Shown here in pieces: positions 8,091 to 29,157 of a stretch of 64,000 bases of DNA (its first letter is position 1; each line of letters begins with the position of its first letter). Source of the stretch: Chelativorans sp. AA-79 (GTDB lineage: Bacteria > Pseudomonadota > Alphaproteobacteria > Rhizobiales > Rhizobiaceae); contig NZ_CP120361.1 of assembly GCF_029457495.1 (NCBI RefSeq), positions 4,356,001 to 4,420,000 on the forward strand, given 5' to 3'. Position numbers and translations under genes: made by a program. Below the pieces are notes generated by a model, which made no database searches, was not told where the DNA came from, and saw only the letters and a program-made list of their open reading frames with translations.

Positions 8091-9176
8091 TTACCGCCGC
8101 TTCACGATGTTGATCCATGCCGCTCGCCCAACATGGATCACCAATCCGGCAAACGTAGCCAACCATGCAGAGATGGCCACAAATATGAAGACCTTCGGGA
8201 TGGAGACGAGAAAGGGCAGATCAAGCGCTCGTGAAAGCTGGTACGTCCCGGTCGTGTACATTCCGAGGGGAAACACCATTCCCCAGAGCTGCGGCTCATA
8301 GACCATCTTGTCCCTCCGTATCACGTACCGCCAAGCCATGAGCGCCAGCAGGAAGGGAATCCACCAGGTGGCAGCAGCCCAGAAGAACAGTGTAAAGCCC
8401 TTTAGAAACGGCAGATAATCCGCAAGTAGCGGCCAATGATCGGCGCGCATGATGAGCGTGGAGCCGGCAAGTGTCGTGATCGCAACCGCGCCCATGTTGA
8501 TCCAGTAAGGTGGCGCGAAGTCGCGTGCTGCCAAGCGCACAAAGGTCAGACGGTAGAAAATCAGCGGAATAATGGCGAGATAAAGCATGCAGCCGATCAT
8601 GAACATGGCGAGGGACAGGAATTGTATCTCCACGGTTGGCGCCGTTTGCAGATCGAGTGTCCCGCGCAAGACGACGATTGACTGTGTCGCGACCGCTGCG
8701 ATCAGCCAGGCACCGTTGATTCCGGCTGCAAGCGATGGCTTGTTCTCGCGCACCGTGACGGCAGTGAAGAACGCGTACATCACGAGCAGCCATAGGCCGA
8801 GCCCGACATACCATAGCGTGCTCGCAACGTCGGGAGCATCGGCCACAATCGCGCTCTGGGTCCCGAGGACGCACGTCCCAGCGACCAGCGTAAAAAACCC
8901 TGGTGCGCGTTGATGATCGGAAAGATCCTCGGTCAGCTTGCTTCGGAACAGGATTATCCGGAGCAGCGTCAGGATCCAAAGGATCACGTAGGCGATCCAG
9001 TTAATGCCGACGAGGAGAGAGGCAAATGCCGGGAACCCTAAAAGCTGGCATGCGATGGACACCACGCCCGTCGCCATCACCAGAGCGAAGTATCCGGGAA
9101 ACAGACTCTCGGCCGCACTGAGGACGAAGGGTCCCAGCGCCGACGATCTCTGTTTGCTATCAGGGGGGGCGGCCAT
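8091..9176 (-). CDS. TDT (TehA/SLAC1-type) membrane transporter
   Basis: A 361-aa integral membrane protein with about ten transmembrane segments. The N-terminal SLFPGYFALVMATGVVSIACQL motif and the later GMVFPLGMYTTGTYQLS segment are characteristic of the tellurite-resistance/dicarboxylate transporter (TDT) family, which includes TehA, SLAC1-type anion channels and malate or sulfite exporters. The substrate cannot be read from sequence. It begins 3 bp after the stop of the small membrane protein at 9180-9572, so the two are probably co-transcribed. Confidence 0.9.
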   Translation of the reverse strand: MAAPPDSKQRSSALGPFVLSAAESLFPGYFALVMATGVVSIACQLLGFPAFASLLVGINWIAYVILWILTLLRIILFRSKLTEDLSDHQRAPGFFTLVAGTCVLGTQSAIVADAPDVASTLWYVGLGLWLLVMYAFFTAVTVRENKPSLAAGINGAWLIAAVATQSIVVLRGTLDLQTAPTVEIQFLSLAMFMIGCMLYLAIIPLIFYRLTFVRLAARDFAPPYWINMGAVAITTLAGSTLIMRADHWPLLADYLPFLKGFTLFFWAAATWWIPFLLALMAWRYVIRRDKMVYEPQLWGMVFPLGMYTTGTYQLSRALDLPFLVSIPKVFIFVAISAWLATFAGLVIHVGRAAWINIVKRR

Positions 9177-9179
9177 CTG

Positions 9180-9572
9180 TCAGTGTTCCAGGTAGCGCGT
9201 CACCAGATCGAGCTGGAGAAAGAAGATAAGCAAAGCCGTGTTTCCCGCCCATGCCACCGTCAACCAGCGGGCCAGTAGACCCCAGAACGGATGCGCGTTG
9301 GTTGCGCAGCGCCAGACAGATACAAGAATCCAGATTGTATAACCGGCAAAGCCGAACAGCAGGAGTTGCTGCGCAACGAGCCGACCTTCGTGTATTGCCA
9401 GAACGTGAAGGAAAACGAAGATGGCGCTCGCGCTGACGCCATAGCCCCAAAACACCTTCCCGAGCGGTTCTGCGCCGTGCCATGCGCGCAACTCCGGCTC
9501 GAAGAAGCCGGAAGTGACGCGTGCCACAAAAGATTTGGAGCGTCGTCCCGATGTCATATTTGGCGCCTTCAC
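9180..9572 (-). CDS. Small three-TM membrane protein
   Basis: A 130-aa protein with three hydrophobic segments (about residues 45-62, 69-86 and 100-123) after a basic N-terminus; the C-terminus is short and cytoplasmic-like. No family was recognised. It lies 3 bp upstream of the TDT transporter and may be an accessory subunit or a protein of the NO-stress regulon, both only inferred from position. Confidence 0.65.
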   Translation of the reverse strand: MKAPNMTSGRRSKSFVARVTSGFFEPELRAWHGAEPLGKVFWGYGVSASAIFVFLHVLAIHEGRLVAQQLLLFGFAGYTIWILVSVWRCATNAHPFWGLLARWLTVAWAGNTALLIFFLQLDLVTRYLEH

Positions 9573-9653
9573 GTGGGCGGGCAGCCTGTTTGCCGAAATC
9601 TCACACCTCCTTGTCTTGATCTCCCGGTGGGCCGGACGGAAGGTGCCTCGGTG

Positions 9654-9854
9654 TTACCGGGACGCCCCACTATCTCCCCAAAGCCAGTCTTCCAGCCAGT
9701 CAAAAAGGACTGCCAGGACAATTGCGAGGGCGACGATTACAAGACGCTGTCGTGCATACCGCATCGCGCTGGTGGGCGGATACCATAGCTCGGCCATCAT
9801 TTCATGAAATCGAACCGGGAGCCGAGGCCCCATAAGGTGGACGAGCCCACTCAC
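9654..9854 (-). CDS. Small single-TM protein coupled to ric
   Basis: A 66-aa protein with one strongly hydrophobic helix (RLVIVALAIVLAVLFDWLEDWLW) near the C-terminus. The GTG start overlaps the stop of the iron-sulfur repair gene (GTGA), the best support that it is translated. No homologue was recognised. An internal start at the second or third Met would give a shorter 36-48-aa membrane peptide; I cannot decide between them. Confidence 0.5.
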   Translation of the reverse strand: MSGLVHLMGPRLPVRFHEMMAELWYPPTSAMRYARQRLVIVALAIVLAVLFDWLEDWLWGDSGASR

Positions 9855-10588
9855 CGCTGCGCGTCCGGTTGCACAGCGGTTGTCGACCCCGCCGGGTATG
9901 CGTGTCCCGCTGATTCCGGTTGTCCAAACCTCGGGAACAGCACGTTGTTCTCCAGATGGATATGCTCCATGACGTCGTCAACGAGTTTGGCCCCGCCCGC
10001 ACAGAGCGCTTGCCAGGATCGGCAAGCGCCTTCCGGCGGAACAAAACCGTTGGCTATCTCTTCCAGCCGCCGCAGGTGATCGCCATGACGGTGGTGATCA
10101 TCACGCATCTGCTCGATCGAAAGCGCATCGAGAGGATCACCATCCCGTCGCATCAGCGGGAAGAGTTCCATCTCCTCCTTCTGCATGTGCACCTCGAGTT
10201 CTGAATGCATCTCGTGGAGCGTGTCGGCGAGTCCGATCGGAGCCTGCGGGTGGACGGCATGAACCGCCTCGACCTTGCGCGCGAGACGTATCAGCTCCGG
10301 CAGCTCGCGCCGATGCGTTTCATGGTATCGGCTCAGGATATGATCGATCAGTGGACCGGTTTCTTCCGGTACCGTGAGACCTGCGTTCGGATCGAGTGCG
10401 GCGAGTGCGCCTTCAATGGAGGCGATATCCAAACCCCGCTTGCTGGCCACTTCCCCCAGCGTCAGATCGCCACCGCAGCAAAAATCCAGCTTGAACTTCC
10501 TGAACACGGCGGTAGCGCCGGGCAATGCAGCTGCGATTTCGCCGATGTTGCGGTCCCTGAGAGAGACTTTCGCGGTTTCGCTGGTCAT
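9851..10588 (-). CDS. ric: Iron-sulfur cluster repair di-iron protein (Ric/DnrN/ScdA/YtfE)
   Basis: A cytoplasmic di-iron protein that restores Fe-S clusters damaged by nitric oxide or oxidants. The 245-aa product has the N-terminal ScdA_N domain with the C37-C38 pair in DFCCGGDLTLGE, then the hemerythrin-like domain with iron ligands in HETHRRELPEL, EMHSELEVHMQKEE, MRDDHHRHGDH and MEHIHLENNVLFPRF. Genes of this family are classical NsrR targets; an NsrR-like palindrome lies at 10648-10670, about 60 bases before the start. Length and domain order are normal. Confidence 0.95.
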   Translation of the reverse strand: MTSETAKVSLRDRNIGEIAAALPGATAVFRKFKLDFCCGGDLTLGEVASKRGLDIASIEGALAALDPNAGLTVPEETGPLIDHILSRYHETHRRELPELIRLARKVEAVHAVHPQAPIGLADTLHEMHSELEVHMQKEEMELFPLMRRDGDPLDALSIEQMRDDHHRHGDHLRRLEEIANGFVPPEGACRSWQALCAGGAKLVDDVMEHIHLENNVLFPRFGQPESAGHAYPAGSTTAVQPDAQR

Positions 10589-10647
10589 CGTTCATTTCCT
10601 TTCCGATCCGGAGGTAGATTTTCCGCCGTGATCCGCCCGCGACGCAA

Positions 10648-10670
10648 AGGGATATTGTACATATATCTCT
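10648..10670. promoter_or_regulatory. Candidate NsrR operator upstream of ric
   Basis: An imperfect 11-1-11 palindrome: left arm AGGGATATTGT, centre A, right arm CATATATCTCT (7 of 11 positions pair). Its layout and AT-rich GATAT/ATATC core match the known NsrR box type (AAGATGCATTT and complement) and the three other candidates in this window. It sits 60 bases before the ric start. The arm match is the weakest of the four. Confidence 0.5.
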
Positions 10671-10741
10671 ATTCTGACTCTGCGTCCCTTGCAAACGCTT
10701 GTGGGCGGACGCCCGTGCTATTGACCGAGGTTAAACGTCAG

Positions 10742-11032
10742 TCATGGATTCCCGGCCCTTCGCAGGGAGTGTGGGAGCTGGTGTTGGCCGAAGTCGATCG
10801 TCGAACGCCGGAGAACCTGGCCTGCATCATTGACATCCAGTCGGACACGACGTCCCTTGTAGAAGAAGGTCAGCCGATGCAGCCCGCGATGTTCCCCCTC
10901 GCCATGCTCGCAAATGCTCGTGATCTCGTTCTCGCACATCAGCGTCTGGACGCGGTGCGCTGGCACATTCAGGAGATCTCCCAGCAGTGCGGCGTCGATG
11001 CAAAAACCGTCTTCGTTTCTTTCTAGCAACAT
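10742..11032 (-). CDS. DUF6522-like small protein
   Basis: A 96-aa protein resembling the DUF6522 family: the N-terminal EDGFCIDAALLGDLLNVP segment, the central LMCENEITSICEHGEGE block and the FYKGRRVRLDVNDAGQVLRRS strand pair. Members are found in denitrification and NO-response gene clusters; function is unknown. It lies 103 bp downstream of the preceding minus-strand gene and 153 bp upstream of ric, with the NsrR-like site in between, so ric probably has its own promoter. Confidence 0.75.
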   Translation of the reverse strand: MLLERNEDGFCIDAALLGDLLNVPAHRVQTLMCENEITSICEHGEGEHRGLHRLTFFYKGRRVRLDVNDAGQVLRRSTIDFGQHQLPHSLRRAGNP

Positions 11033-11135
11033 CCGCAGTTCCTCAAGGAAGACAGAGCGCCCCTCCGTGCAGAATGCAGGCGACGCCCGGCGATTGCGAT
11101 TTGAAAGTCAGTTGCGCCTCCTCCGTCCGCGCATC

Positions 11136-11369
11136 TTACCAAGGCAGCTTCGGTGTTAGCCGATGCAGCAGAACGTCAAAGCGCCTGGCGGTTTTCGGGC
11201 TGGTGTGCCTCAATGCGACGCAAGCCTGCCCGGCGAGACGGCAGGCGAACTCGATCTCGCCAGCTTCTGCGAGTGCCTTGAGGCTCGCGGCCAGGATGTC
11301 GGCGAGATGCCGTGCTTCACCGTCTACGCCAGCTCCACTGGCGGTGATTTCGTTTCCATGCTCGCTCAC
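11136..11369 (-). CDS. Small helical protein coupled to the Nfu_N-DUF59 gene
   Basis: A 77-aa predicted helical protein (ARHLADILAASLKALAEAGEIEFACRLAG) starting with GTG in a GTGA overlap with the stop of the Nfu_N-DUF59 gene. A longer frame open to 11534 is a shadow of that gene. The sequence looks like a small helix bundle with two Cys; no family was recognised. Tight coupling suggests a partner of the upstream Fe-S protein. Confidence 0.6.
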   Translation of the reverse strand: MSEHGNEITASGAGVDGEARHLADILAASLKALAEAGEIEFACRLAGQACVALRHTSPKTARRFDVLLHRLTPKLPW

Positions 11370-12019
11370 CAGCCGCCTCCGTCGCGTATTCCGAAGCGCG
11401 CCTTGGCCCTCTCGCTCATCATTTCTGGTGTCCAGCGTGGTTCGTAGGTGAGCTTCACGTCCACGAACTCGACCCCCGGCACGTTGCTTGCGCACTCGCC
11501 TGCGCCCGCTTTCAGATAGTCCGTCGCCGGACATCCGGGCGTGGTCGTAGTCATAGTGAGATGAACCACACCACCATCTTCGATGGCAACGTCGTAGATC
11601 AGGCCGAGATCGACGATATTGTAACCCAGTTCCGGGTCTATCACCTGACGCAGCGCATCTCTTATGCGCTCGGCAAAATCATTTGTGTCTCCCTCCGCAA
11701 CGGTGCGGTCGGATGACGGTGCGTCAGATCCTGCGGGCTCGACGACCACCGGCGCGCCGGACATAAAGTGCTCCATGATCGCGCCCAGGATCGCCGGCTT
11801 CAGGTGCTGCCACTCACCGCCCCCCTTGGTGACGGTAATGAAATCACCGCCGAGGAATATGCCCGATACGCCCGGAATCTGGAACAACCGTGCCGCGAGC
11901 GGAGAGCTTGCAGCCTGTGAGCTATCGTGGAGGTCGAGTGTGCCGTGGCTGAGCACTTCGCGACCAGGCAGGAATCTGAGGGTCGCAGGGTCCGGCATCG
12001 GCTCGGTCTGGATGAACAT
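11366..12019 (-). CDS. Nfu N-terminal domain fused to DUF59/MIP18 iron-sulfur assembly domain
   Basis: A 217-aa two-domain protein. Residues 1-95 match the Nfu_N domain (MFIQTEPMPDPATLRFLPG, FQIPGVSGIFLGGDFITVTK). Residues about 115-212 match the DUF59/MIP18 (SufT/PaaD-like) domain: VIDPELGYNIVDLGLIYDV and TTTTPGCPATDYL with its conserved Cys. The usual C-terminal NifU-like CxxC scaffold domain of Nfu is absent and replaced by DUF59. It probably acts in Fe-S cluster assembly or repair. The last 40 codons of a second copy survive at 51254-51373. Confidence 0.88.
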   Translation of the reverse strand: MFIQTEPMPDPATLRFLPGREVLSHGTLDLHDSSQAASSPLAARLFQIPGVSGIFLGGDFITVTKGGGEWQHLKPAILGAIMEHFMSGAPVVVEPAGSDAPSSDRTVAEGDTNDFAERIRDALRQVIDPELGYNIVDLGLIYDVAIEDGGVVHLTMTTTTPGCPATDYLKAGAGECASNVPGVEFVDVKLTYEPRWTPEMMSERAKARFGIRDGGGW

Positions 12020-12024
12020 GGCGG

Positions 12025-12552
12025 TCAGGCTCCGTGCTGGCTCGCGACCCTCACCAGGATCCTGTATGTCTTACCATCCGGCTCAAAGCCGCCCCGCCAG
12101 CAATGTCCCCGTTTCTCGAGTTCGGGGAACAGGAACACCGGCTCGCGGCACAGCAGTGCCGAGACAACCTCGCCTTCCTTCATAGTTTCGGTCGCGGCCA
12201 GAATGCGCACCATTGGCTCGGGTGGATCGAGGTCACGATTGTCCATTTCGGTGACTGGCTCTGGCCATTCCTCGCCGTCCCCAGCTGCAATCGAGACTTC
12301 GGCTTCTGAGGGCTTCTCTACTCCGGTCGGCCTGAAGAGCACTTCCCAGTCGCCGGCTTCGAGTTCCCTCGCTTCATGTGAATAGCCTTTCGCGCCAAGG
12401 ACGCTGAAGAGCGGTACGGGCTCGAACGTGGCGAGTAGCCGCAGGCCCTCCCCTGGGCCGAGCGCGGCGACCGCGCTCAGGATTTCCTCAAAGGGTTCTC
12501 CGCCGGCGCGCAGGATGGGGCGGACATCAAGGTCTACGAATGTCATTGTCAT
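12025..12552 (-). CDS. Tandem DUF2249 protein
   Basis: A 175-aa protein made of two DUF2249 repeats. The first (residues 5-75) reads VDLDVRPILRAGGEPFEEIL then GEGLRLLATFEPVPLFSVL; the second, more diverged (about 100-170), has MVRILAATETMKEGEVV, PVFLFPELEKRG and TYRILV. DUF2249 is TusA/SirA-like in fold and frequent in NO and low-oxygen regulons; no reaction is established. It lies 5 bp upstream of the Nfu_N-DUF59 gene and 18 bp downstream of the membrane-protein gene, so it is in one operon with them. Confidence 0.83.
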   Translation of the reverse strand: MTMTFVDLDVRPILRAGGEPFEEILSAVAALGPGEGLRLLATFEPVPLFSVLGAKGYSHEARELEAGDWEVLFRPTGVEKPSEAEVSIAAGDGEEWPEPVTEMDNRDLDPPEPMVRILAATETMKEGEVVSALLCREPVFLFPELEKRGHCWRGGFEPDGKTYRILVRVASQHGA

Positions 12553-12570
12553 CGGCTTTCTCCTTTCGGA

Positions 12571-13926
12571 TCAACTTTGTCGGGCGACCGACATAAGGAG
12601 GCGGGGTCGCGATGCGCCTGCCGGAAGACGCTGCTCTGCCCCCACGTTGAGCAGCCGGCGGGTGCACAGAAGCTGCACGACGATCCCGGAAGTCGCGACA
12701 AGCATCACCGCGGCCGCAAACCTGAATGCGAAGGTGTGTTCCAGGAGGAGCGCAGCAGTGCCGGACCAAACAGCGAGGAAGTAGATGAGGAACCATTTGA
12801 TCGCGCGTTGCTCGATCACCAGGTCCTGCACTCTCGGCGTCGACGCCCTGCCGAGCACGGGTCCGTAGCATTCGAGCCACGTCAGAAAAGCGACGATCTT
12901 GTAGAGCTTGGCGAGGCCGAGCCCGGACAACCAGCCGAAAGCGACCAGGAAGACGAGCGGGGCGATGAAGTCTGACAGCCGGCCGAGTGCGAGTAGGACA
13001 GCCATGAGAACGACGGAGGCCGCAAGCGAAGCGAGCGATAACGCTGCCATGCGGCTGTTCAATTCTATGTCCCGGCGCTTTCGGGCGCGATAAAGATGGA
13101 GCATGTCGCGCCCATAAAGCGCCAAAGCCGCAACGGCGATGAGGCCCGCAACAAGGAGGGCGGTATCAGGCTGTCCCTCCCACCAGATAGCGGCAACTCC
13201 GCCCACGATTGCGATGGTTAGCCCGGCTGCGCCAAGACCGAGCGCCGCATGCGTACTCGGCGAATCGAGTTCCGGTGCGAGCATGAACATGGCCAATAAT
13301 CGGTAGCTGACGCCCATGGCGGTAAAGGTCAGCCAGCCGCCAAAGCCGGCAATCGCGTGGATGGAAACCCCTTCAGCGGCTATGGCAAGGAAAGGCGGAT
13401 ATGTGGTTGCGCCTCCGAGAACGAGCGCAAAGATAATCCCCAACGTCGCAGCAACGGCAACGCTGCAAAGCCCGATCACAACAAAACGTGCCGGCAGAGG
13501 CAACGGCCGCGCGGCCCACAATGTACGCCCGAGGTTCCAGAGAACGAGCGCAAACCCAGCGCCGAGAAGCGCGCTGGCGAGCAGAAAATATGGCAGAACC
13601 GGCTGCACTCGCCCTGCGAGCGTCAGAAAGCCGAGAAGCAGTGCCGCAATGCCGCCGATCAGGCAGATGAGCGTCGGCAAAGGCAACGTGTTGCTGAAAA
13701 GAGGCTTCGCGACAAGAACCGGCACGAACTGGAACAGCGCGCCGCACATCAGGAGGCTCAGCCATCCGAGCGCGACGACGTGTACCAGAACGAGCGTGTC
13801 AGGAGACTTCAGCGGTGCGTTCGGAAAGCCGTATCCCAGGGTCATCATCAACTCCGCCGCAACAAGGGCAAGGAGTGATGCTGCGAAATAGGACATGGTC
13901 CAGCGAGACAGCGAAACTCCAGTCAT
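12571..13926 (-). CDS. Twelve-TM membrane protein resembling heme-copper oxidase subunit I
   Basis: A 451-aa integral membrane protein with about twelve hydrophobic segments. H49 in LVLVHVVALGWLSLLMCGAL and H190 in SIHAIAGFGGWLTFTAMGVSYRL resemble heme- or metal-ligand helices of cbb3/NorB-type subunit I and NnrS-like proteins. The HH pair expected for a CuB or FeB site is not seen, so it is unlikely to be a canonical oxidase. It sits in an operon with DUF2249 and Fe-S proteins after a NsrR-like operator. A heme-binding or NO-related role is inference. Confidence 0.75.
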   Translation of the reverse strand: MTGVSLSRWTMSYFAASLLALVAAELMMTLGYGFPNAPLKSPDTLVLVHVVALGWLSLLMCGALFQFVPVLVAKPLFSNTLPLPTLICLIGGIAALLLGFLTLAGRVQPVLPYFLLASALLGAGFALVLWNLGRTLWAARPLPLPARFVVIGLCSVAVAATLGIIFALVLGGATTYPPFLAIAAEGVSIHAIAGFGGWLTFTAMGVSYRLLAMFMLAPELDSPSTHAALGLGAAGLTIAIVGGVAAIWWEGQPDTALLVAGLIAVAALALYGRDMLHLYRARKRRDIELNSRMAALSLASLAASVVLMAVLLALGRLSDFIAPLVFLVAFGWLSGLGLAKLYKIVAFLTWLECYGPVLGRASTPRVQDLVIEQRAIKWFLIYFLAVWSGTAALLLEHTFAFRFAAAVMLVATSGIVVQLLCTRRLLNVGAEQRLPAGASRPRLLMSVARQS

Positions 13927-13943
13927 GATCGGACACTCCTCGA

Positions 13944-13973
13944 GATCGTACCGGGCACCGGCCCGGTACGATC
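13944..13973 (-). terminator. Perfect 13-bp stem-loop between DUF2249 and the membrane-protein gene
   Basis: GATCGTACCGGGC and its exact complement are separated by the four bases ACCG. The hairpin begins 14 bases after the DUF2249 stop and ends 18 bases before the next start. No T-tract follows on either strand, so it is more likely an intercistronic mRNA-stabilising or attenuating hairpin than a full intrinsic terminator. It would allow different expression of the first gene and the rest of the operon. Confidence 0.7.
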
Positions 13974-13986
13974 CGAAATGGCTGGA

Positions 13987-14247
13987 CTAGGCAGCTTCGG
14001 CACGCTTCCCTATCTCGACACGCCAGACTTCCGGTCCGCGTTCGAGATAGTCCCACGAGAATTGCTCCGGATACTCTGCCTCGAGCTGATAGTAGAGCGG
14101 TTTGGGATCGTGGTCGTTCACCAGGATGAACGCCTCGCCCGCCACGAGGCTTCCCACCAGCTCGAAGATTCGTCTGTGTCGCTCAGCCGGCACCAGCGTA
14201 CGCACGTCCATTACATCAATATCCCGATCCTCAGGTCTGGTCGTCAT
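13987..14247 (-). CDS. DUF2249 single-domain protein
   Basis: An 86-aa protein that is essentially one DUF2249 domain: DVMDVRTLVPAERHRRIFE, then AFILVNDHDPKPLYYQLEAE and the ending FSWDYLERGPEVWRVEIGKR, the strongest form of the family signature. The start at 14247 is preferred because a purine-rich AAGGAG precedes it; an upstream in-frame Met at 14313 gives an unconserved extension. It is the first gene of the minus-strand operon, about 135 bases from the palindrome at 14381-14411. Confidence 0.88.
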   Translation of the reverse strand: MTTRPEDRDIDVMDVRTLVPAERHRRIFELVGSLVAGEAFILVNDHDPKPLYYQLEAEYPEQFSWDYLERGPEVWRVEIGKRAEAA

Positions 14248-14380
14248 CTGAAACTCCTTCTTTCGGCCAGGGAGGCGGTCAGTGGCCTCGCAAGTGTGGA
14301 AGGACGTGCCCAATCGGAAGCGAGTGCACGCGACCTTGCCACGTCGAGCCCGGCCTTACGCCTATGTCGCAGCGTTGATC

Positions 14381-14411
14381 ATAAAAGATGTATTGTCAAT
14401 ATATCTTTTAT
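14381..14411. promoter_or_regulatory. Near-perfect 31-bp NsrR-type palindrome in divergent promoter
   Basis: A 15-1-15 inverted repeat with 14 of 15 positions pairing. The inner 23 bases (14385-14407) are AAGATGTATTG, T, CAATATATCTT, which fit the NsrR 11-1-11 consensus very closely. It lies between the minus-strand DUF2249 operon (start 14247) and the plus-strand gene at 14484, so it can control both directions. A NsrR protein is encoded at 27979-28455. Confidence 0.82.
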
Positions 14412-14483
14412 CGTCTATCGATTGTGAAGCGATGCCAACGCATGGACATGCGTGGCGCAGCTTGCAGAGAGCAAAGAAAGACG

Positions 14484-14948
14484 ATGACCCATTTAGGCAT
14501 CATGACGGGCGGAGAGCACCTAGTCGCAGGCACGGCCGCAAAACTAGTCCAAGTGAGACAAAAGACCGCCGAACGAGAAGAGCTTGCCCGAGCGCTACTG
14601 GCTGCCTTTCGCCGGCATCCTCACGTCAACAATGTGATGACCCATATCAGCCACGGACAGTGGGATCGCGTGGAGGAAGCGCTCCGCGCCATTCTCGACC
14701 CGACTGCTGCGGCCGGCACACTATCCCCGCTGGCGATCAATATCGTGGAGTTAATTGCGGCGGAACAGGGCGTCACTGGGCGTATACTCAGCCTCTTCAT
14801 GAAAGAGTTGCTGGCCAGGTTGCTGCCGCCACAGGAGGCCGCCTGCGTGCAAGCGCACATCTCTGGGGTCTTCGAAGCCTCTGCATCCGAGCGGCCATCC
14901 GCCGCTCACGCGCGAAAAGCAGGCGCCAATCACGGAAGGAGACTCTGA
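14484..14948 (+). CDS. Hypothetical protein, first gene of the divergent NO-response block
   Basis: A 154-aa protein, probably mainly helical (REELARALLAAFRRHPHVNNVM, LAINIVELIAAEQGVTG). No family was recognised. The frame is open back to 14388, but the upstream Met codons lie next to the operator and lack a ribosome site; 14484 is weakly supported by AAAGA. The stop overlaps the next start (TGATG), so this begins a coupled set of small genes under the 14381-14411 palindrome. Confidence 0.62.
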   Translation: MTHLGIMTGGEHLVAGTAAKLVQVRQKTAEREELARALLAAFRRHPHVNNVMTHISHGQWDRVEEALRAILDPTAAAGTLSPLAINIVELIAAEQGVTGRILSLFMKELLARLLPPQEAACVQAHISGVFEASASERPSAAHARKAGANHGRRL

Positions 14949-15187
14949 TGGATGATCCAACCAGAAAATTCGATGCGGGTCGGCGGGCATTTCTGGAGTC
15001 CTTGATACGCGATGATTACGCGCGATGCCATCCAGGGGAAACACTCGACGACCTAATATACCGCGCACGCTTTTCGCGAGAGGACCAGGGTCTCTTGCGC
15101 GACTGGCTCATGTTTGCCGTCACGCGGGAAAAGGAGCACCAGGTAGAGAAGGCCGCTAGCTCTCGCGTTTTCCATCAGGCGGCGTGA
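14948..15187 (+). CDS. Small hypothetical protein
   Basis: A 79-aa charged, probably helical soluble protein (MDDPTRKFDAGRRAFLESL; ETLDDLIYRARFSREDQG). It starts one base inside the upstream stop, preceded by GGAAGGAG, a good ribosome site. It has no recognised domain. The coupling to the 154-aa gene argues for translation. Confidence 0.65.
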   Translation: MDDPTRKFDAGRRAFLESLIRDDYARCHPGETLDDLIYRARFSREDQGLLRDWLMFAVTREKEHQVEKAASSRVFHQAA

Positions 15188-15486: not shown

Positions 15487-15577
15487 GTAGAAAGAACTGT
15501 GACAGCGTACCTATCCGCTGAGGTCGGCCACAGGTTTGACGGCTGATCCGTGGGATCCCAATGTTCCGGAGATGGTC

Positions 15578-15916
15578 ATGTCTGAGATGAGTTTTCCAAA
15601 AGCCACGCGTAAGCACGCCGAGCGCCGGCACGCGCTGTCGCCCAACTCCGACGACGCTTTTCGAGCGTTTTCAAAGGCGGTGTTTGATGATGGTGCGCTC
15701 GACAAGCATACGAAGCAGCTCATCGCGGTAGCCGTGGCTCATGTGACCCAATGTGCCTGGTGCATCGAGGGCCATGTCAATGCCGCGCGCCGAGAGGGAG
15801 CGAGCGCAGAAGAGATCATGGAAGCGATTTGGGTCGCCGCCGAGATGCGCGCGGGGGCGACAGTCGCACACTCTATAAAAACACTCGAGCTATTGGACGA
15901 TGCCCAAAAACGATAG
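15578..15916 (+). CDS. Carboxymuconolactone decarboxylase/AhpD-like protein
   Basis: A 112-aa protein with the AhpD core: KHTKQLIAVAVAHVTQCAWCIEGHVNAA, where the CxxC and nearby His form the redox or proton-relay site, then EEIMEAIWVAAEMRAGATVAHS. Such proteins serve as thiol peroxidase partners or as small hexameric enzymes of unknown substrate. The start at 15578 follows a GGAG; a TTG at 15536 would extend it by 14 residues. It lies 24 bp upstream of nnrS. Confidence 0.85.
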   Translation: MSEMSFPKATRKHAERRHALSPNSDDAFRAFSKAVFDDGALDKHTKQLIAVAVAHVTQCAWCIEGHVNAARREGASAEEIMEAIWVAAEMRAGATVAHSIKTLELLDDAQKR

Positions 15917-15940
15917 CTTCCCGCACGGCGGCAGACCGTC

Positions 15941-17140
15941 ATGACGGGCACCGCCGAACAAATGCGGGCTTGGCGCGGTCCAGCTCTGCTGAGCTATGGT
16001 TTCCGCCCGTTCTTCTTCGGCGCGGGGATCTGGGCTTCGCTGGTAATGGTGATCTGGATATCCCTGTTGAACGGTATTCTGGATCTTCCCATAGCGTTTG
16101 ATCCTGTTTCCTGGCATGCGCACGAGTTCCTGTACGGCTATCTGAGTGCGGTGATCGCTGGCTTCTTGTTCACGGCCGTACCGAACTGGACCGGACGTCT
16201 ACCAATCGTGGGCTGGCCGCTCGGCGCATTCTTCGCTCTCTGGATCGTGGGCCGGATCGCCATCGCACTGTCGGCCGGGCTTTCTCCAATTCTGGTGGCG
16301 GCCGCCGATCTCGCATTCCCGCTTGTGTTGGCCGTAGCGATCGCGCGGGAAATCATTAAGGGACGTAACTGGCGAAATCTGATCGTGTTGGCGATGCTTG
16401 GCGTGTTGATTGCCGGCAATCTGGTTTTCCATTGGGAAGCCGCGCATGGAGACTATGCGGCCCGCGGCATGGGGCTGCGAATCGGGCTTGCGGCCGCAGT
16501 CATGCTGATTGCGATAATCGGCGGCCGAATCGTGCCATCCTTTACCCGCAACTGGCTGGCGCGACAAAGTTCTCCGGTCCTTCCTGCACCTCCTATGCAG
16601 CGGTTCGACAAGGTGGCGCTGTCGGTTCTTGCGGTTGCGTTGTTATTGTGGATTGTGCTGCCGCATACATCCACGACCGGACTAGCGATGCTTTTGGCAG
16701 GCGGCATGCACTCGCTTCGGCTGGCGCGCTGGGCCGGAGACCGGACCGCATCGGAGCCGCTCGTCCTTGTTTTGCATGCCGGCTTTGCCTTTGTGCCTCT
16801 TGGTGCGCTCGCGATCGGAACGGCAATTCTTGAGCCCGAATGGATAGACATGGCCGCGGCACAGCACGTCTGGATGGCCGGTGCTATCGGAGTGATGACC
16901 GTCGCAGTGATGACGCGTGCCACGCTCGGTCACACCGGGCGCGCACTGACTGCCGATCTGGGTACCGTCATGATATACATCCTGCTCATCGTCGCTGTAC
17001 TCGTACGCGCTCTGGCCGGACTGACGCCTTCGCTCGCCGTCGCGTTGAATAGCCTTGCCGGGCTTGCCTGGATCGCGGCGTTCAGTGGTTTCTCAGTGCT
17101 CTATGGACGCTATCTGCTTCGATCCAAAGTGCGCGCTTAA
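15941..17140 (+). CDS. nnrS: NnrS family heme-copper membrane protein
   Basis: A 399-aa polytopic protein with about twelve TM helices. The N-terminal LLSYGFRPFFFGAGIWA and WHAHEFLYGYLSAVIAGFLFTAVPNWTGR motifs, GGRIVPSFTRNWLA in the middle and the late VMTRATLGHTGRAL motif are diagnostic of NnrS. NnrS proteins bind heme and copper and protect cells from NO-derived iron-nitrosyl stress, and are typical NNR or NsrR regulon members. It ends the plus-strand block and converges with narK. Confidence 0.95.
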   Translation: MTGTAEQMRAWRGPALLSYGFRPFFFGAGIWASLVMVIWISLLNGILDLPIAFDPVSWHAHEFLYGYLSAVIAGFLFTAVPNWTGRLPIVGWPLGAFFALWIVGRIAIALSAGLSPILVAAADLAFPLVLAVAIAREIIKGRNWRNLIVLAMLGVLIAGNLVFHWEAAHGDYAARGMGLRIGLAAAVMLIAIIGGRIVPSFTRNWLARQSSPVLPAPPMQRFDKVALSVLAVALLLWIVLPHTSTTGLAMLLAGGMHSLRLARWAGDRTASEPLVLVLHAGFAFVPLGALAIGTAILEPEWIDMAAAQHVWMAGAIGVMTVAVMTRATLGHTGRALTADLGTVMIYILLIVAVLVRALAGLTPSLAVALNSLAGLAWIAAFSGFSVLYGRYLLRSKVRA

Positions 17141-23174: not shown

Positions 23175-26100
23175 TCCGCGGCCTCCTCCTTGCGTTCCTG
23201 TCTTCCGGTGCCCCAATCGGCGGTTCCGCCCGTTACATCCGCGGCGTCGTCGGCAGCCTTGTCGAACCAGTTCACCTCGCTCATTTTCCGAATGATGACG
23301 ATTTCATCGCGATTGGCGCCCACGGTACCGTAGTAGTTGAAGCCGTAGGCCAGTTGCGCATAGCCGCCGATCATATGCGTCGGCTTCATATTGATGCGCG
23401 TGACGGAATTGTGGATGCCGCCGCGCTGGCCGGTGACCTCCGAGCCGACCGTGTTCACCAGCTTTTCCTGCGCGTGATACATGATGCACGAACCCGGCAT
23501 GATCCGCTGGCTGACGATTGCCCGGGCGGTCAGCGCGCCATTGACGTTGAACGCCTCGATCCAGTCATTGTCGACGATGCCTGCCTCAGCCGCGTCCTTT
23601 TCGCTGATCCACACTGCTGGTCCGCCGCGGTTGAGGCTCAGCATGATGAGGTTTTCGGTATAGGTGGAATGAATCCCCCACTTCTGGTGCGGCGTCAGAA
23701 AGTTCAGTACGATTTCACGATTGCCGTTGGGCAACTTCCCAAGTGCCCGCGCCACGCTCCGTGTGTCGATCGGCGGCTTCCAAGTCACGAAAGCTTCGCC
23801 GAAGGCGCGCATCCAGTGGTGGTCCTGATAAAGCTGCTGGCGACCTGTTATGGTGCGCCAGGGGATTAGCTCATGGACGTTGGTGTAGCCGGCGTTGTAG
23901 CACACCCTCTCGCTCTCGATGCCCGACCAGGTCGGCGAAGAGATGATCTTGCGCGGCTGGCTGACCACGTCGCGGAAGCGGATCTTCTCTTCCTCCTTGC
24001 CTTCCGCTAGATGCGCATGTGGGCGGCCCGTCGCCTTTGAAAGCACGTCCCAAGCCTTGATCGCCACCTCGCCATTCGTCTCCGGCGCCAGCATCAAGAT
24101 GGTCTCGCAAGCATCGATATCGGAATCGACCTTCGGCCGTCCGGCGGCCGGTCCCTCTAGAACACGTCCGTTCAGGTTTCCAAGCTGCTCGACTTCGCGC
24201 TCCGCCTTCCAGATCAGGCCTTTGGAGCCATTGCCGTGCTTTTCGATGTCAGGACCGAAGGACGTAAAGCGGTGAAAGGTCTCGGGATAGTTGCGCTCGA
24301 CCAGATGCACGTTCGGCATGGTCTTGCCAGGGACCGGATCGCATTCGCCGCGCTTCCAGTCCTTCGGCTCGTAGGGCTGGCCAAGCTCGCCCGGCGTGTC
24401 GTGCTGGATCGGCGAGAGTACCAAATCCTTCTCGATGCCGAGCACTTCAGGCGCAACGTCCGAGAACTTTTGTGCAAGGCCGCGGAAAATGGCCCAGTCG
24501 CTGCGTGCCTCCCATGAAGGGTCCACCGCCGCGGTCAACGGATGAACGAAGGGATGCATGTCCGTGGTGTTGAGATCGTGCTTCTCGTACCAGGTCGCTG
24601 TCGGCAGAACGATGTCGGAATAGACGCTGGTAGTCGACATGCGAAAGTCGATATTGACCATGAGATCGAGCTTGCCGACGGGAGCCTCGTCGCGCCAGAC
24701 GACTTCGTCGGGCCGCTGGATTTCCTCGCGGTCGTCGGTCCCCACCACGCCGTGCAACGAGCCGACGAAGTGCTTCAGGAAATATTCATGCCCCTTGCCG
24801 CTGGCGCCCAGCACGTTCGAGCGCCAGAAGAACATGTTGCGGGGCCAGTTGCGCGGGTTGTCGGGATCGGCGTTGGCAAGCCTGATCTTGCCGGATTTGA
24901 GCTCCTCCGACGTTACCTCGCCGGGATCGCGCCCGTCCTCGGCGATGCTGCGGCCGAGATCCAACGGATTGGTTTCGAACTGCGGTGCAGACGGTAACCA
25001 CCCCATGCGCTCGGCGCGGATGTTGTAGTCGAGCATTGCGCCTGACCAATCCCCCGCCGGCGCCAGCGGTGAAAGGAGCTCGGAGACCTTCATCGTTTCG
25101 TAACGCCACTGGTCGCTGTGAGCGTAGAAGAAGGAAGTACCGTTCATTTGCCGTGGAGGTCGGTTCCAGTCGAGCGCAAAAGCGAGCGGCAGCCAGCCGG
25201 TCTGCGGACGCAGCTTCTCCTGCCCCACATAATGCGCCCATCCGCCGCCGGATTTGCCGATGCAACCACACATCACCAGAAGCTGGATGATGCCGCGGTA
25301 GCTCATGTCCATATGGTACCAGTGGTTAAGTCCGGCCCCGAGGATCACCATGGATCGCCCCTCGGTGGTCTCGGCGTTGGCGGCGAACTCGCGCGCAACC
25401 TGGATAATGGCTTGCTGCGGCACGCCGGTCACCTTCTCCGCCCAGGCAGGCGTGAACGGGATGTCATCGTCGAAATGCTTGGCGACGTTTTCACCGCCAA
25501 AACCGCGATCGAGACCGTAATTGGCGCAGTAGAGGTCAAAGACCGTAGCAACCCGCACCTTGCTACCATCGGCACGCTCAATCTCTCGTACCGGGACGTT
25601 GCGCTTGAGGACCCGTTCGTGTCCGGTGGCGACCCAGTCGTGCGCCGCGCTGCCACCGAAATAGGGAAAGGAGACCGGCACGTTATCGTCATGCGCGTCG
25701 GCGAGGCTCATGCGCAGCCGGATATCGCGACCCTTGCCGTCACGCTCCTCGAGGTTCCACTTGCCTTCCTCGCCCCAGCGGAAGCCGCTTGAGCCAAGCG
25801 GCGCCACGAGCTCGCCGCTGATCTCGTCGATCCCGACAGCCTTCCAGTCGGGATTGTTCGTCTCGCCGAGAGAGTCCGCCAGATCGGCCGCCCGCAGCAT
25901 GCGGTCCGGCACCAGATGTCCGTCGCGTTCGCTCAAGGTGACGAGCAGCGGGAAGTCGGAATAGCGCCGAGTGTAACTGGTAAAATATTCAGACTGTCTG
26001 TCCAGATAGAACTCGCGCAATACCACGTGGCCGAGCGCCAGAGCCAGGGCCGCATCCGTGCCCTGCTTGGGATGCAGCCACATGTCGGAGAACTTGGCCG

Positions 26101-26959
26101 CCTCATTATAGTCCGGCGCGATGACGATGCTCTTTGCGCCCCGATATCGCACTTCAGAGTAGAAATGGGCATCGGGCGCGCGCGTCATCGGCACATTCGA
26201 ACCCCAGACCAGCAGGAAGCCCGCATTGTACCAATCAGCGCTCTCCGGCACGTCGGTCTGCTCCCCCCAAACCTGCGGCGAAGAGGGCGGCAGGTCGCAA
26301 TACCAGTCGTAAAAGGAAAGGATGGTGCCGCCGAGCAGCGAGAGATAGCGGGAGCCGGCCGCATAAGAGATCATAGACATAGCTGGAATGGGCGAAAACC
26401 CGGCCACCCGGTCTGGCCCGTACTCGCGAATCGTATACGCATTGGCCGCGGCGATGATCTCGTTGACCTCATCCCAACCCACGCGCACGAAACCACCGCG
26501 GCCGCGCTTGGCCACCCAGTCGCGGCGCTTCGCCCCATCCTGGACGATCGATCGCCAGGCGGCGACCGGACTCATCGTCTTCCGCGCCTCACGCCAATGT
26601 CTGATCAGCCGGGCACGCACGAGCGGATACTTGATGCGTGTTCCCGAATAGAGATACCAGGAATAGCTGGCACCCCGCGGACAGCCGCGCGGCTCATGAT
26701 TGGGCAGATCGGGACGCGTCCGCGGGTAGTCCGTCTGCTGGGTCTCCCAAGTGACGATCCCGCCTTTGACGTAGATCTTCCAGGAGCAGGATCCGGTGCA
26801 GTTCACACCGTGCGTGGAGCGTACGATCTTGTCCGCCGCCCAGCGCTTCCGGTAAGCATCCTCCCACTTGCGGCTTTCTCGCGTCGTAATGCCGTGGCCA
26901 CTCGAGAATGTTTCCTGATCCCTACGAAAATAGGTCAGTCGATCTAAAAAATGGCTCAT
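23171..26959 (-). CDS. narG: Nitrate reductase alpha subunit, complete copy
   Basis: A full-length 1262-aa catalytic subunit. H50, C54, C58 and C93 match the ligands of the FS0 [4Fe-4S] cluster. The segment YDWYCDLPPSSPQVWGEQTD carries the molybdenum-binding Asp region, and many bis-MGD contact blocks are present (RAPDAHFYSEVRY, HPKQGTDAALALALGH). The N-terminus keeps only a vestigial twin-arginine-like motif, as in cytoplasmic NarG. It is the first gene of the minus-strand operon narGHJI-parvulin-113 aa-TM-narK. Confidence 0.98.
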   Translation of the reverse strand: MSHFLDRLTYFRRDQETFSSGHGITTRESRKWEDAYRKRWAADKIVRSTHGVNCTGSCSWKIYVKGGIVTWETQQTDYPRTRPDLPNHEPRGCPRGASYSWYLYSGTRIKYPLVRARLIRHWREARKTMSPVAAWRSIVQDGAKRRDWVAKRGRGGFVRVGWDEVNEIIAAANAYTIREYGPDRVAGFSPIPAMSMISYAAGSRYLSLLGGTILSFYDWYCDLPPSSPQVWGEQTDVPESADWYNAGFLLVWGSNVPMTRAPDAHFYSEVRYRGAKSIVIAPDYNEAAKFSDMWLHPKQGTDAALALALGHVVLREFYLDRQSEYFTSYTRRYSDFPLLVTLSERDGHLVPDRMLRAADLADSLGETNNPDWKAVGIDEISGELVAPLGSSGFRWGEEGKWNLEERDGKGRDIRLRMSLADAHDDNVPVSFPYFGGSAAHDWVATGHERVLKRNVPVREIERADGSKVRVATVFDLYCANYGLDRGFGGENVAKHFDDDIPFTPAWAEKVTGVPQQAIIQVAREFAANAETTEGRSMVILGAGLNHWYHMDMSYRGIIQLLVMCGCIGKSGGGWAHYVGQEKLRPQTGWLPLAFALDWNRPPRQMNGTSFFYAHSDQWRYETMKVSELLSPLAPAGDWSGAMLDYNIRAERMGWLPSAPQFETNPLDLGRSIAEDGRDPGEVTSEELKSGKIRLANADPDNPRNWPRNMFFWRSNVLGASGKGHEYFLKHFVGSLHGVVGTDDREEIQRPDEVVWRDEAPVGKLDLMVNIDFRMSTTSVYSDIVLPTATWYEKHDLNTTDMHPFVHPLTAAVDPSWEARSDWAIFRGLAQKFSDVAPEVLGIEKDLVLSPIQHDTPGELGQPYEPKDWKRGECDPVPGKTMPNVHLVERNYPETFHRFTSFGPDIEKHGNGSKGLIWKAEREVEQLGNLNGRVLEGPAAGRPKVDSDIDACETILMLAPETNGEVAIKAWDVLSKATGRPHAHLAEGKEEEKIRFRDVVSQPRKIISSPTWSGIESERVCYNAGYTNVHELIPWRTITGRQQLYQDHHWMRAFGEAFVTWKPPIDTRSVARALGKLPNGNREIVLNFLTPHQKWGIHSTYTENLIMLSLNRGGPAVWISEKDAAEAGIVDNDWIEAFNVNGALTARAIVSQRIMPGSCIMYHAQEKLVNTVGSEVTGQRGGIHNSVTRINMKPTHMIGGYAQLAYGFNYYGTVGANRDEIVIIRKMSEVNWFDKAADDAADVTGGTADWGTGRQERKEEAAE

Positions 26960-27978: not shown

Positions 27979-28455
27979 ATGCGCCTGACAACATTCTCGG
28001 ACTATGCTCTTCGCGTCTTGATGTACGCGGCGACGGCAGGTGACCGCCTCGTCACGATCGACGAGACGGCCAAGACCTATGATATTTCACGCGCCCATCT
28101 CATGAAGGTCGTCAATATCCTCACACGAACGGGCTACATCAAAGGTGTGCGCGGACGGTCCGGCGGGTTCACCTTGGCGAAGCGTCCCGAAGACATCAAT
28201 CTCGGCGAGGTGGTGCGGGCGACGGAACCTGATTTCGCGCTCGTCGAGTGTTTCGCCACGGGCAACCAATGCGTCATTACGGGCAGTTGCCGTCTCCCGA
28301 TGGTCTTGAACGAAGCGTTGAATTCATTCGTTGCGACTCTCCACCGGTACACGCTCGCCGATATCGTCCTTAGTCCGCGAGATTTCATACCGCGTGCGGA
28401 ATCCATGGGCACCCGGGGACCGCACCTTGTCGCTGCATCCGGTGAGCGGAACTAG
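27979..28455 (+). CDS. nsrR: Rrf2-family nitric-oxide-sensing repressor NsrR
   Basis: A 158-aa Rrf2 regulator. The N-terminal winged helix (MRLTTFSDYALRVLMYAA; DISRAHLMKVVNILTRTGYIKG; GRSGGF wing) is followed by Cys residues C91, C98 and C104 in the spacing used for Fe-S ligation in NsrR; D8, the fourth ligand in one characterised NsrR, is also present. Holo-NsrR represses NO-detoxification genes and releases DNA when the cluster is nitrosylated. Four matching operator-like palindromes occur in the window. Confidence 0.93.
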   Translation: MRLTTFSDYALRVLMYAATAGDRLVTIDETAKTYDISRAHLMKVVNILTRTGYIKGVRGRSGGFTLAKRPEDINLGEVVRATEPDFALVECFATGNQCVITGSCRLPMVLNEALNSFVATLHRYTLADIVLSPRDFIPRAESMGTRGPHLVAASGERN

Positions 28456-28531
28456 ATCTCATCGATCCATTTCAGCTGACTGCAGGGATCTGCGACAGGT
28501 GATCGCACTGACCGGAATACGGTTGACCATA

Positions 28532-28554
28532 AAGATATATTGAGTATCCATCTT
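28532..28554. promoter_or_regulatory. Candidate NsrR operator upstream of the pseudoazurin gene
   Basis: An 11-1-11 element: AAGATATATTG, A, GTATCCATCTT, with 7 of 11 arm positions pairing and both outer AAGAT/ATCTT blocks intact. It lies about 148 bases before the pseudoazurin start and 77 bases after the nsrR stop. Together with the palindrome at 14381-14411 it defines a local consensus AAGATRTATTG. Confidence 0.62.
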
Positions 28555-28701
28555 TTAGTGTTGAAGCGAAGGCGGTCGTGACCCGAGTTGTCATCGAATT
28601 TCCCTAGAGCGCAAACTTTCGGCCTGCATCGGGGTCTGCGCCGCAAATTGCTTCTGTGAAGACCATCCCGATCCGAAGAATTGACAACAAGGAGAGACTT
28701 C

Positions 28702-29157
28702 ATGCGTTACCTGTCGGTGCTTGCGGCTGGAGCCATGGCAATTGTCGCCCTGAATGGTGTGCAGGCGGCAGAAGTCGAGGTGAAGATGCTCAATCGCGGC
28801 GAAAAAGGCGTGATGGTCTTCGAGCCCGATCTGATCACCATCCAGCCGGGCGACAGCGTCCGTTTTGTTGCAACCGACAAGGGCCACAATGTCGAGAGCA
28901 TCAAGGAGATGCTCCCGGCAGGTGCTGAAGCCTTCACCGGAAAAATGAACAAGGAGCTGACGGTTACTTTCGAACAGCCCGGCGCCTATGGGGTCAAGTG
29001 CAAGCCGCATTACGGCATGGGAATGGTGGCGCTTGTTGTCGTCGGCGAGCCCGAAAACAGGAACGAGGTGGCTGAAGTCAAGCATCCGGGTAAGGCTGGG
29101 AAAGTGTTCACCACGCTTTTTGAGGAACTCGATAAGGTTCAGAGCGCTGCCCGATAA
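28702..29157 (+). CDS. Pseudoazurin (type 1 copper electron carrier)
   Basis: A 151-aa periplasmic cupredoxin that donates electrons to nitrite or nitrous oxide reductase in denitrifiers. The first 22-23 residues are a signal peptide (MRYLSVLAAGAMAIVALNG). The type 1 copper ligands are H62, C100, H103 and M108, with the same spacing as classic pseudoazurins. The start at 28702 is fixed by AAGGAGA just upstream; a TTG at 28681 covers that ribosome site. The matching nitrite reductase gene is not in the window. Confidence 0.95.
   Translation: MRYLSVLAAGAMAIVALNGVQAAEVEVKMLNRGEKGVMVFEPDLITIQPGDSVRFVATDKGHNVESIKEMLPAGAEAFTGKMNKELTVTFEQPGAYGVKCKPHYGMGMVALVVVGEPENRNEVAEVKHPGKAGKVFTTLFEELDKVQSAAR

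Follow-up and report, generated by a model that had tools for sequence, protein, structure and literature searches.

A predicted NO-responsive gene set of Chelativorans, containing a two-histidine heme-copper oxidase homologue, resembles the Thermus drp locus

Several described systems come close to the locus analyzed here. In Thermus, the genes drpA and drpB have been treated as a bicistronic, DnrT-dependent unit, and the available text of PMC6282519 describes only these two of the drp genes. A drpAB double mutant makes NarG, at one tenth of the activity, and deletion of drpAB renders nar transcription independent of nitrate, which the Thermus authors read mainly as the loss of a nitrate sensor (PMC6282519). 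For the Thermus B homologue (see below) and the DUF59 gene, we found no phenotype in the literature searched, part of which was available as partial text. Another involves COG4309, which we take to be the DUF2249 family. In three rhizobia, COG4309 probably shares a transcript with nor genes, as it often does with norB in beta-proteobacteria, according to the available text of PMC1274295, which also gives the NsrR consensus as gATGyAT-N5-ATrCATc. The available text of PMC11218638 credits Pei et al. 2014 with linking DUF2249 to heme-copper oxidase (HCO) homologues.

We analyzed a 64,000-nucleotide stretch of Chelativorans DNA (the window), in which eight ORFs lie on one strand between positions 9654 and 14247 (Table 1). 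A preliminary description had counted seven genes and named six; the two ORFs it left unnamed are E, which is conserved and begins with GTG, and the 66-aa H. Its one-strand run of DUF2249, double DUF2249, Nfu_N plus DUF59, DUF6522 and Ric genes is borne out by Pfam and NCBIfam scores. The short gaps and overlaps that it reported hold for A to E, with gaps of 60 (A–B), 18 (B–C) and 5 nt (C–D) and a 4-nt overlap of D and E. Beyond E they do not: the E–F and F–G gaps measure 103 and 153 nt, followed by a 4-nt overlap of G and H. By these measured gaps, A to E alone are tightly packed. A scan of 9400–14700 returned no sigma-70-type promoter (1.1 expected) and five terminator-like sites (4.1 expected, sd 2.0).

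Table 1. Coordinates of ORFs and operator-like sites in the window
Feature	Position	Strand	Evidence
A: single DUF2249 protein, 86 aa, DrpA-like	13987..14247	-	PF10006 106.8 bits
B: twelve-TM two-histidine homologue of heme-copper oxidase subunit I, 451 aa	12571..13926	-	
C: double DUF2249 protein, 175 aa, DrpB-like without DUF1858	12025..12552	-	PF10006 121.5 bits
D: Nfu_N + DUF59 (FeS_assembly_P) fusion, 217 aa	11366..12019	-	PF08712 91.7, PF01883 74 bits
E: conserved three-helix protein, 77 aa	11136..11369	-	GTG start
F: DUF6522 protein, 96 aa, occasional neighbor	10742..11032	-	PF20132 101.4 bits
G: Ric/YtfE-type di-iron protein, 245 aa	9851..10588	-	TIGR03652 212.6 bits, cut-off 204.7
H: 66-aa ORF overlapping Ric end	9654..9854	-	no Pfam match; probably one TM helix (by eye)
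NsrR-type 23-bp palindromic operator, upstream of core operon	14385..14407	.	18/18 scored positions
Weaker operator-like palindrome, F–Ric gap	10647..10669	.	15/18 scored; 4 mismatches to genome-scan pattern
Third NsrR-type site, between Rrf2 gene and pseudoazurin (28681)	28532..28554	.	17/18 scored; 2 mismatches
Rrf2-family regulator, candidate NsrR for these operators	27979..28455	+	PF02082 118.2 bits

For the comparison of neighborhoods we took the best 80 of 229 relatives of B, so these loci lean toward close kin of the window. Next to B, C was present in 78 of the 80 loci, D in 75, A (counted from 80 bits) in 59 and E in 51. Of the 67 loci whose flanks were long enough, 43 had A, C, D and E together. 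A was not found in 21 of these 80 loci and E in 29, some of the loci stopping at contig ends. The profiles of C, D and E had no match in eight stretches from the distant clade, some of them short. DUF6522 lay within 7 kb of B in 10 of the best 80 loci and Ric near B in one. The Ric protein scored 240.7 against the YtfE model, short of its cut-off (254). Co-occurrence across genomes, which the preliminary description had proposed as a check, thus holds for A–E, fails for Ric and largely fails for DUF6522. A seven-gene module including Ric and DUF6522 was rejected, as that set is not conserved among these 80 loci. Judged from sequence, the conserved unit is A-B-C-D-E: a DUF2249 protein, a twelve-TM protein, a double DUF2249 protein, a DUF59 protein with optional Nfu_N and a 77-aa helical protein.

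Both A and C exceed the PF10006 cut-off (29.5), C in two stretches and with an additional TusA match (30.7 bits). Hits below 100 bits were left out of both alignments; in the 58 A sequences kept, H24 and H46 are invariant. The TusA cysteine position was placed by eye from the Pfam TusA match and from what we take to be the TusA motif. In C this position is Pro in 79 of 80 sequences (best 80 of 229) with one gap, and in A it is Val, Ile, Pro or Met in 58 of 58, never Cys. Sulfur delivery by 'TusA-like' DUF2249 proteins, as previously suggested, therefore finds no backing, and we rejected a sulfur relay through them because the cysteine position is not conserved. A shares 64% identity with Thermus DUF2249 proteins over 81%, and the DrpB-like protein of Thermus aligns with C over 156 columns at 35% identity (E 4e-24). 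A DrpA-like and a DrpB-like protein are thus found together in the window.

C163 of D is present in 99% of 76 aligned sequences; the Nfu_N part occurs in 18 of the 75 loci with a D match (best 80 of 229). E has no Pfam or NCBIfam match. Its C43 is present in 53 of 53 aligned sequences and its H69 in 96%; the AF2 model reaches pLDDT 83.7 and pTM 0.65, and its best Foldseek match has an E value of 1.3.

B has no Pfam match at E up to 1, PF05940 (NnrS) included, and no match to PDB sequences at E up to 10. Its predicted structure contains twelve long helices in a heme-copper oxidase fold, so the earlier label of the 451-aa protein as 'HCO-like, twelve TM' was right. H49 (TM2) and H190 (TM6) are the only invariant histidines in 81 B sequences, and the same pattern is seen in 14 B sequences from three clades, B being common to all three clades examined. 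Catalytic CcoN and NorB subunits have six ligand histidines, which serve two hemes and CuB/FeB; B has only its two invariant ones. The protein shows a threefold internal repeat in a two-clade alignment (units 1 versus 2, E 4.3e-6; 1 versus 3, E 2.1e-6; 2 versus 3, E 5e-4), units 1 and 2 giving no match with A1 alone. Across the repeat units H49 pairs with H190, and the unit 3 counterpart, in TM10, is Phe326. The full-length B profile shows weak or no similarity to CcoN and NnrS; for NnrS, hhalign detects no kinship (E 0.73). Compared unit by unit, B unit 1 matches the last unit of CcoN; no match was seen for unit 2 with two CcoN units, unit 3 with the last or unit 1 with the first. Among the matches listed, no Sphingopyxis B appears by name, names being sparse there, and SGRAN_3394-3396 is a B-C-D candidate only.

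The 'strong NsrR-type operator' noted earlier upstream of the core operon has held up well. Besides its full score (Table 1), it agrees by eye with the published consensus at 13 of 14 positions and is the only zero-mismatch site for the search pattern in the 5.76-Mb genome; the reversed pattern found no site with three or fewer mismatches in the same genome. The weaker palindrome lies between F and Ric, so Ric may start its own transcript. A similar 23-bp palindrome, matching at least 15 of 18 positions, lies upstream in 45 of 77 loci (the best 80 of 229 less three with too little upstream DNA), against ∼0.1 expected in mononucleotide shuffles. It is absent in the other 32 of these 77, and no NsrR-type site was found before the S. 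meliloti copy or before Thermus drpA; NO-type NsrR control is thus not found in every member. An Rrf2 gene with the motif C-x5-7-C-x5-C is present in 34 of the same 77 loci, which, with the operator counts, supports NO-type regulation as earlier proposed. The Rrf2 protein in the window scores below the cut-offs of both the NsrR model (124.9 against 182) and the RirA model (129.1 against 193).

In an order-level sample, B was found in 15 of 297 genomes. NirK was present in 12 of these 15 (p 2.3e-6), NirK or NarG in all 15 (p 6.3e-7) and cNorB in 8, compared with 46 of the 282 others (p 0.0017); these values ignore shared ancestry. NirK and B were within 8 kb on one contig in 7 of the 12 genomes with both. 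NirK and NarG were called above curated cut-offs (68 and 64 of the 297 genomes), and any match at the E limits used would give 77 and 65. A phylum sample, which overlaps the order sample in genomes, was kept out of the association tests. NnrS is encoded in the window, and at 200 bits or more it lies near B in 15 of the best 80 of 229 loci. Sinorhizobium meliloti 2011 has a B homologue, and in S. meliloti ABS7 the genes adjoin nnrS and nirK. The neighborhoods and the NirK/NarG association together support the denitrification setting claimed for the operon.

Three Thermus plasmids match the A, B, C and D profiles, and in two of them the set directly follows nar genes. The Thermus locus has the order DrpA-DrpB-4TM-protoglobin-B-DUF59. 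The Thermus B homologue keeps both histidines. E was looked for in these plasmids and not found. That a similar gene set adjoins Thermus nitrate-respiration genes suggests that the module helps keep nitrogen-oxide respiration working.

We favor, as plausible though short of probable, the reading that A–E form an NO-inducible maintenance module for nitrogen-oxide respiration, matching the Thermus drp locus in composition. Without NO, an NsrR-type repressor would keep the promoter shut, as the operator suggests; with NO, A–E would be expressed. B would be a membrane protein of the HCO superfamily that has kept the fold and two ligand histidines (H49 in TM2, H190 in TM6). These may hold one heme b, and at the membrane B might meet NO, or pass on electrons or heme. 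A and C (DUF2249), D (DUF59) and, in many proteobacteria, E would be soluble partners that keep or restore the metal centers (Fe–S, Mo or heme) of N-oxide-respiring enzymes against NO. In the Chelativorans genome, Ric may add di-iron repair via its own site. We infer, as parts of this reading, the identity of the repressor, heme occupancy, NO chemistry, the protein targets and physical complexes.

Some of the same evidence could be read with B as the sole effector: an NnrS-like membrane heme protein whose binding or consumption of NO would limit nitrosyl damage, with the DUF2249 and DUF59 proteins serving only to assemble it. NnrS has been proposed to belong to the same wider superfamily as B, two histidines suit one heme, B is the component common to all three clades and NsrR-type control is seen in many loci. 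Yet the hhalign comparison gives no B–NnrS kinship, NnrS is already encoded in the window and near B in some other loci, and the soluble Thermus proteins DrpA and DrpB have phenotypes of their own in the available text, so we regard this alternative as unlikely. Somewhat less likely still is a sensory system, of the kind proposed for Thermus DrpA/DrpB, in which B would act as the membrane receptor and the DUF2249 proteins A and C would signal nitrate or NO to the transcription machinery. The nitrate-independent nar transcription of the drpAB deletion (available text) and the identity of A to Thermus DUF2249 proteins speak for it. However, many proteobacterial copies of the module lie behind an NO-type operator themselves, and none of the module proteins has a Pfam match to a DNA-binding or kinase domain, though B and E match no family. 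Nor would sensing explain why the Thermus mutant loses NarG activity with NarG protein present.

We give little credence to the idea, hinted at for COG4309, that the module serves the maturation of NO reductase alone. The probable joint transcription of COG4309 with nor genes (three rhizobia) and, often, with norB (beta-proteobacteria) given in the available text of PMC1274295, the DUF2249 genes adjoining nor genes on two plasmids and the enrichment of cNorB in B genomes point that way; however, 7 of the 15 B genomes lack cNorB, the only type counted, at the threshold used, NirK is the stronger partner of B and the Thermus phenotype lies in nitrate reductase. Despite the modeled fold, a role for B as a new type of catalytic oxidase or NO reductase is very improbable. 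With two invariant histidines only, in 81 sequences and in three clades, and Phe326 at the TM10 position that pairs with H49, we rejected B as an oxidase or NO reductase.

Returning to the maintenance module, its wider form is doubtful: that DrpA/DrpB and the proteobacterial operon are one widespread four-protein machine that rebuilds or keeps the metal centers of N-oxide enzymes under NO. Its proposed proteins are a DUF2249 protein, a double DUF2249 protein, a single-heme membrane protein of HCO fold and a DUF59 protein. If so, DrpAB 'nitrate sensing' would be a secondary consequence of enzymes failing to mature, and a fold known from oxidases would have come to serve maintenance. One gene set here joins three facts: DUF2249 in NO regulons, two-histidine oxidase homologues and the inactive NarG seen in Thermus drpAB mutants. 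Should this gene set maintain metal centers, denitrifiers would have a so far unassigned layer of tolerance to nitrosative stress, and the view of the Thermus genes as a 'nitrate sensor' would have to be revised.

Among the matches listed in open-access literature, some available as partial text, we found no description of the five-gene set, and the guessed S. meliloti locus tags SMa1253-1261 had no mention in the open-access literature searched. The earlier statement that no described system of this composition was known holds only with qualification, given the DUF2249–HCO link attributed to Pei et al. 2014 and the Thermus drp locus, which matches in composition. Like the locus studied here, the COG4309-norB operons place a DUF2249 gene in predicted NsrR/NnrR regulons; they differ in that the available text of PMC1274295 mentions neither an HCO homologue like B nor DUF59 beside it. 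NnrS (PF05940) is likewise a membrane protein, placed in NO regulons in the available text and found here in denitrification loci, but B lacks a PF05940 match and kinship by hhalign. From CcoN of cbb3 oxidase and NorB of cNOR, B differs in keeping two of the six ligand histidines. The three-unit HCO-homology proteins (HCOH) of Pei et al. 2014 are said to have 12 TM helices, a threefold repeat and two conserved histidines, all of which B shares, together with DUF2249 neighbors. In the Thermus drp locus, DrpB carries an extra DUF1858, where C shows DUF2249/TusA matches only, and there are two additional proteins, one of 144 aa with a weak COX1 match and a protoglobin-ThiS protein. In common, the two loci have a single DUF2249 protein, a double DUF2249 protein, a 12-TM two-histidine HCO homologue and a DUF59 protein, encoded in one run.

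With B, a 451-aa twelve-TM homologue of heme-copper oxidase subunit I, as the query, we confirmed 229 relatives in named genome records, and the best 80 of these served as the locus set. Neighboring genes in the 80 loci were identified by comparison with the window's own proteins. Among these best 80 of 229, B is adjoined by C (a double DUF2249 protein) in 78 loci, by D (DUF59) in 75, by A (a single DUF2249 protein) in 59 and by E (a small helical protein) in 51. DUF6522 lies within 7 kb of B in 10 loci, and Ric in one. A, C, D and E occur together in 43 of the 67 loci having sufficient flank. These neighbor counts define A–E as the conserved core, with Ric and DUF6522 as local additions. The Nfu_N part of D was seen in only 18 of the 75 loci with a D match, so DUF59 is the constant part of this protein. 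Other recurrent neighbors (one representative each checked) include NnrS, a Crp/FNR regulator and a copper-type P-ATPase, as well as a DUF1858 protein, a DUF1971 cupin, a multicopper oxidase-like protein and an FMN_bind/Fer4_5 protein whose domains make it NosR-like. CcoN-like genes were matched at no less than 200 bits in 12 of the 80 loci.

Genes of the A–H run (window coordinates)
Gene	Position	Strand	Product
A	13987-14247	-	DUF2249
B	12571-13926	-	451 aa
C	12025-12552	-	two DUF2249 domains
D	11366-12019	-	Nfu_N + DUF59
E	11136-11369	-	77 aa
F	10742-11032	-	DUF6522
G	9851-10588	-	Ric
H	9654-9854	-	66 aa

In the window, each junction within A–E spans at most 60 bases or is an overlap, and wider gaps lie beyond (103 bases for E–F, 153 for F–G). 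Downstream of A–H on the same minus strand, at 8091–9572, a SLAC1/TDT family transporter follows a 130-aa ORF without known family; the plus strand at 15536–17140 encodes an AhpD-like (CMD) protein, then NnrS. Two narG genes flank the region (1–778 and 23261–26956, from genome coordinates), on opposite strands and with 22 kb between them in the genome.

An NsrR-type 23-bp palindrome lies at 14385–14407, 138–160 bases upstream of A. Sites matching at least 15 of the 18 scored positions were found upstream of A or B in 45 of the 77 loci with enough upstream DNA (from the best 80 of 229). With 20 mononucleotide shuffles per locus, ∼0.1 locus of 77 was expected at 15/18 and none at 16 or above. 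Nearly all 45 sites share the center ATTGACAAT, though its five positions fall outside the scoring. Within the retrieved DNA, 34 of these 77 loci had an Rrf2 gene encoding a C-x5-7-C-x5-C motif; the share was 26/45 among loci with a site and 8/32 among those lacking one (p 0.005). No NsrR-type site was found before the S. meliloti copy or three Thermus copies (best 9–10/18). A pattern scan of the window's own genome, allowing up to 3 mismatches, matched five places. Two are the sites upstream of A and at window 28532, before pseudoazurin. A third, at 4332821, has a Crp/FNR-type regulator gene on one side and a divergent radical-SAM gene on the other, and cNorB (4335917) is ∼3 kb away. The remaining two have 3 mismatches each. 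An operator-like site at 10647 precedes Ric and, with 4 mismatches, is outside these five. The candidate regulator, encoded by the Rrf2 gene at 27979, scores under the cut-offs of both the NsrR and RirA models. In 27979–30984 this gene is followed in turn by the site at 28532, by pseudoazurin and by a cbb3-type ccoN; the NO-type regulon may thus take in an oxidase operon. The site at 14385 may also control two overlapping, divergent plus-strand ORFs at 14388–15187, which have no Pfam or NCBIfam match.

SGRAN_3394–3396, of undefined function and divergent from nsrR, is described as the most NO-induced operon of Sphingopyxis granuli TFA, at 100–200 fold (PMC6472365). A Sphingobium locus has the same layout, with an NsrR-like gene, divergent, then B-C-D, and an operator-like site (16/18) ∼49 bases upstream of B-C-D. 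SGRAN_3394–3396 may be the same genes as B-C-D.

B occurs in 15 of 297 genomes of an order-level sample. By a test that ignores shared ancestry, these genomes more often carry NirK (12/15 versus 56/282 others, p 2.3e-6), NarG (7/15 versus 57/282, p 0.024), either of the two (15/15 versus 104/282, p 6.3e-7) and cNorB (8/15 versus 46/282, p 0.0017). Compared across NirK, NarG and cNorB, what the module tracks is nitrogen-oxide respiration, not cNOR alone; that it is specific to NO reductase, the last of three rival readings, we consider very unlikely. Our tentative preference, short of an even chance, is that the module provides NO-induced upkeep of metal centers for nitrogen-oxide respiration, with B as its single-heme membrane part.

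A sensing role ranks between the other two rivals and seems quite unlikely. The Thermus DUF2249 proteins DrpA and DrpB have been presented as a nitrate sensor encoded by a two-gene operon; in the same source, a drpA/drpB double mutant had 90 versus 900 units of nitrate reductase activity with NarG still present, and the authors concluded an additional maturation role (PMC6282519). Of the evidence assembled, this activity loss is the one functional datum bearing on the module's target; it tells about the DUF2249 proteins rather than about B. That B is purely NO-binding leads the rivals, yet is itself unlikely.

Distant forms of B make up eight of the 22 occurrences in 397 genomes of a phylum sample (E 1e-19 to 1e-35), and six of the eight, when aligned, were 23–26% identical. 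A divergent hemerythrin protein lies beside B in four of six such loci tested (L104, L105, L106 and L110; other Pseudomonadota), fused to DUF2249 in L104 and L105; the tested neighbor in the other two is a protein of no family and a radical-SAM protein, respectively. On plasmids, tblastn matched B in 113 records, 50 from Sinorhizobium and 42 from Rhizobium. S. meliloti ABS7 pSymA has the order DUF2249-B-(unannotated stretch)-DUF59, adjoining nnrS, nirK and a Crp/Fnr gene; the unannotated stretch (L089:11360-12187) matches C, mostly in the same open frame as D and partly in another. In two haloarchaeal plasmids (L114:8206-10057 and L118:8254-10138), ric comes directly behind the gene for a long DUF2249 protein, so the DUF2249–Ric pairing exists in archaea too.

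The closest comparison is with the Thermus drp locus. Two T. thermophilus plasmids carry, after the nar operon, genes for DUF2249, 273-aa, 144-aa, protoglobin-ThiS, 383-aa and DUF59 proteins in this order, and at several junctions gene ends touch or overlap. In a T. brockianus plasmid, genes of these same sizes follow one another, with other genes between them and the nar genes. In L112, one of the two T. thermophilus plasmids, the 273-aa protein comprises DUF1858 and two DUF2249 domains, the protoglobin protein matches ThiS, and the 144-aa protein, by eye a single four-helix unit, weakly matches COX1. The 144-aa and protoglobin genes lie between DrpB and the B homologue (L112:10007-11283 and L120:10007-11283). 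This homologue, the 383-aa protein, matches a two-clade B profile at E ∼1e-35 with both histidines aligned, a close-kin profile at 1e-10, and B itself by pairwise BLASTP at 2e-7 over 67 residues; a CcoN fragment in the same profile search gave ∼1e-6. H49 and H190 are invariant in 14 sequences from three clades. The profile of E found no match in any of the three Thermus plasmids. A 2020 review also treats drpAB as bigenic, and its relevant text leaves the genes behind drpAB unmentioned (PMC7694296). A matches Thermus DUF2249 proteins at 64% identity and C the DrpB-like protein at 35% over 156 columns, and all three plasmids yield matches to every one of the A, B, C and D profiles.
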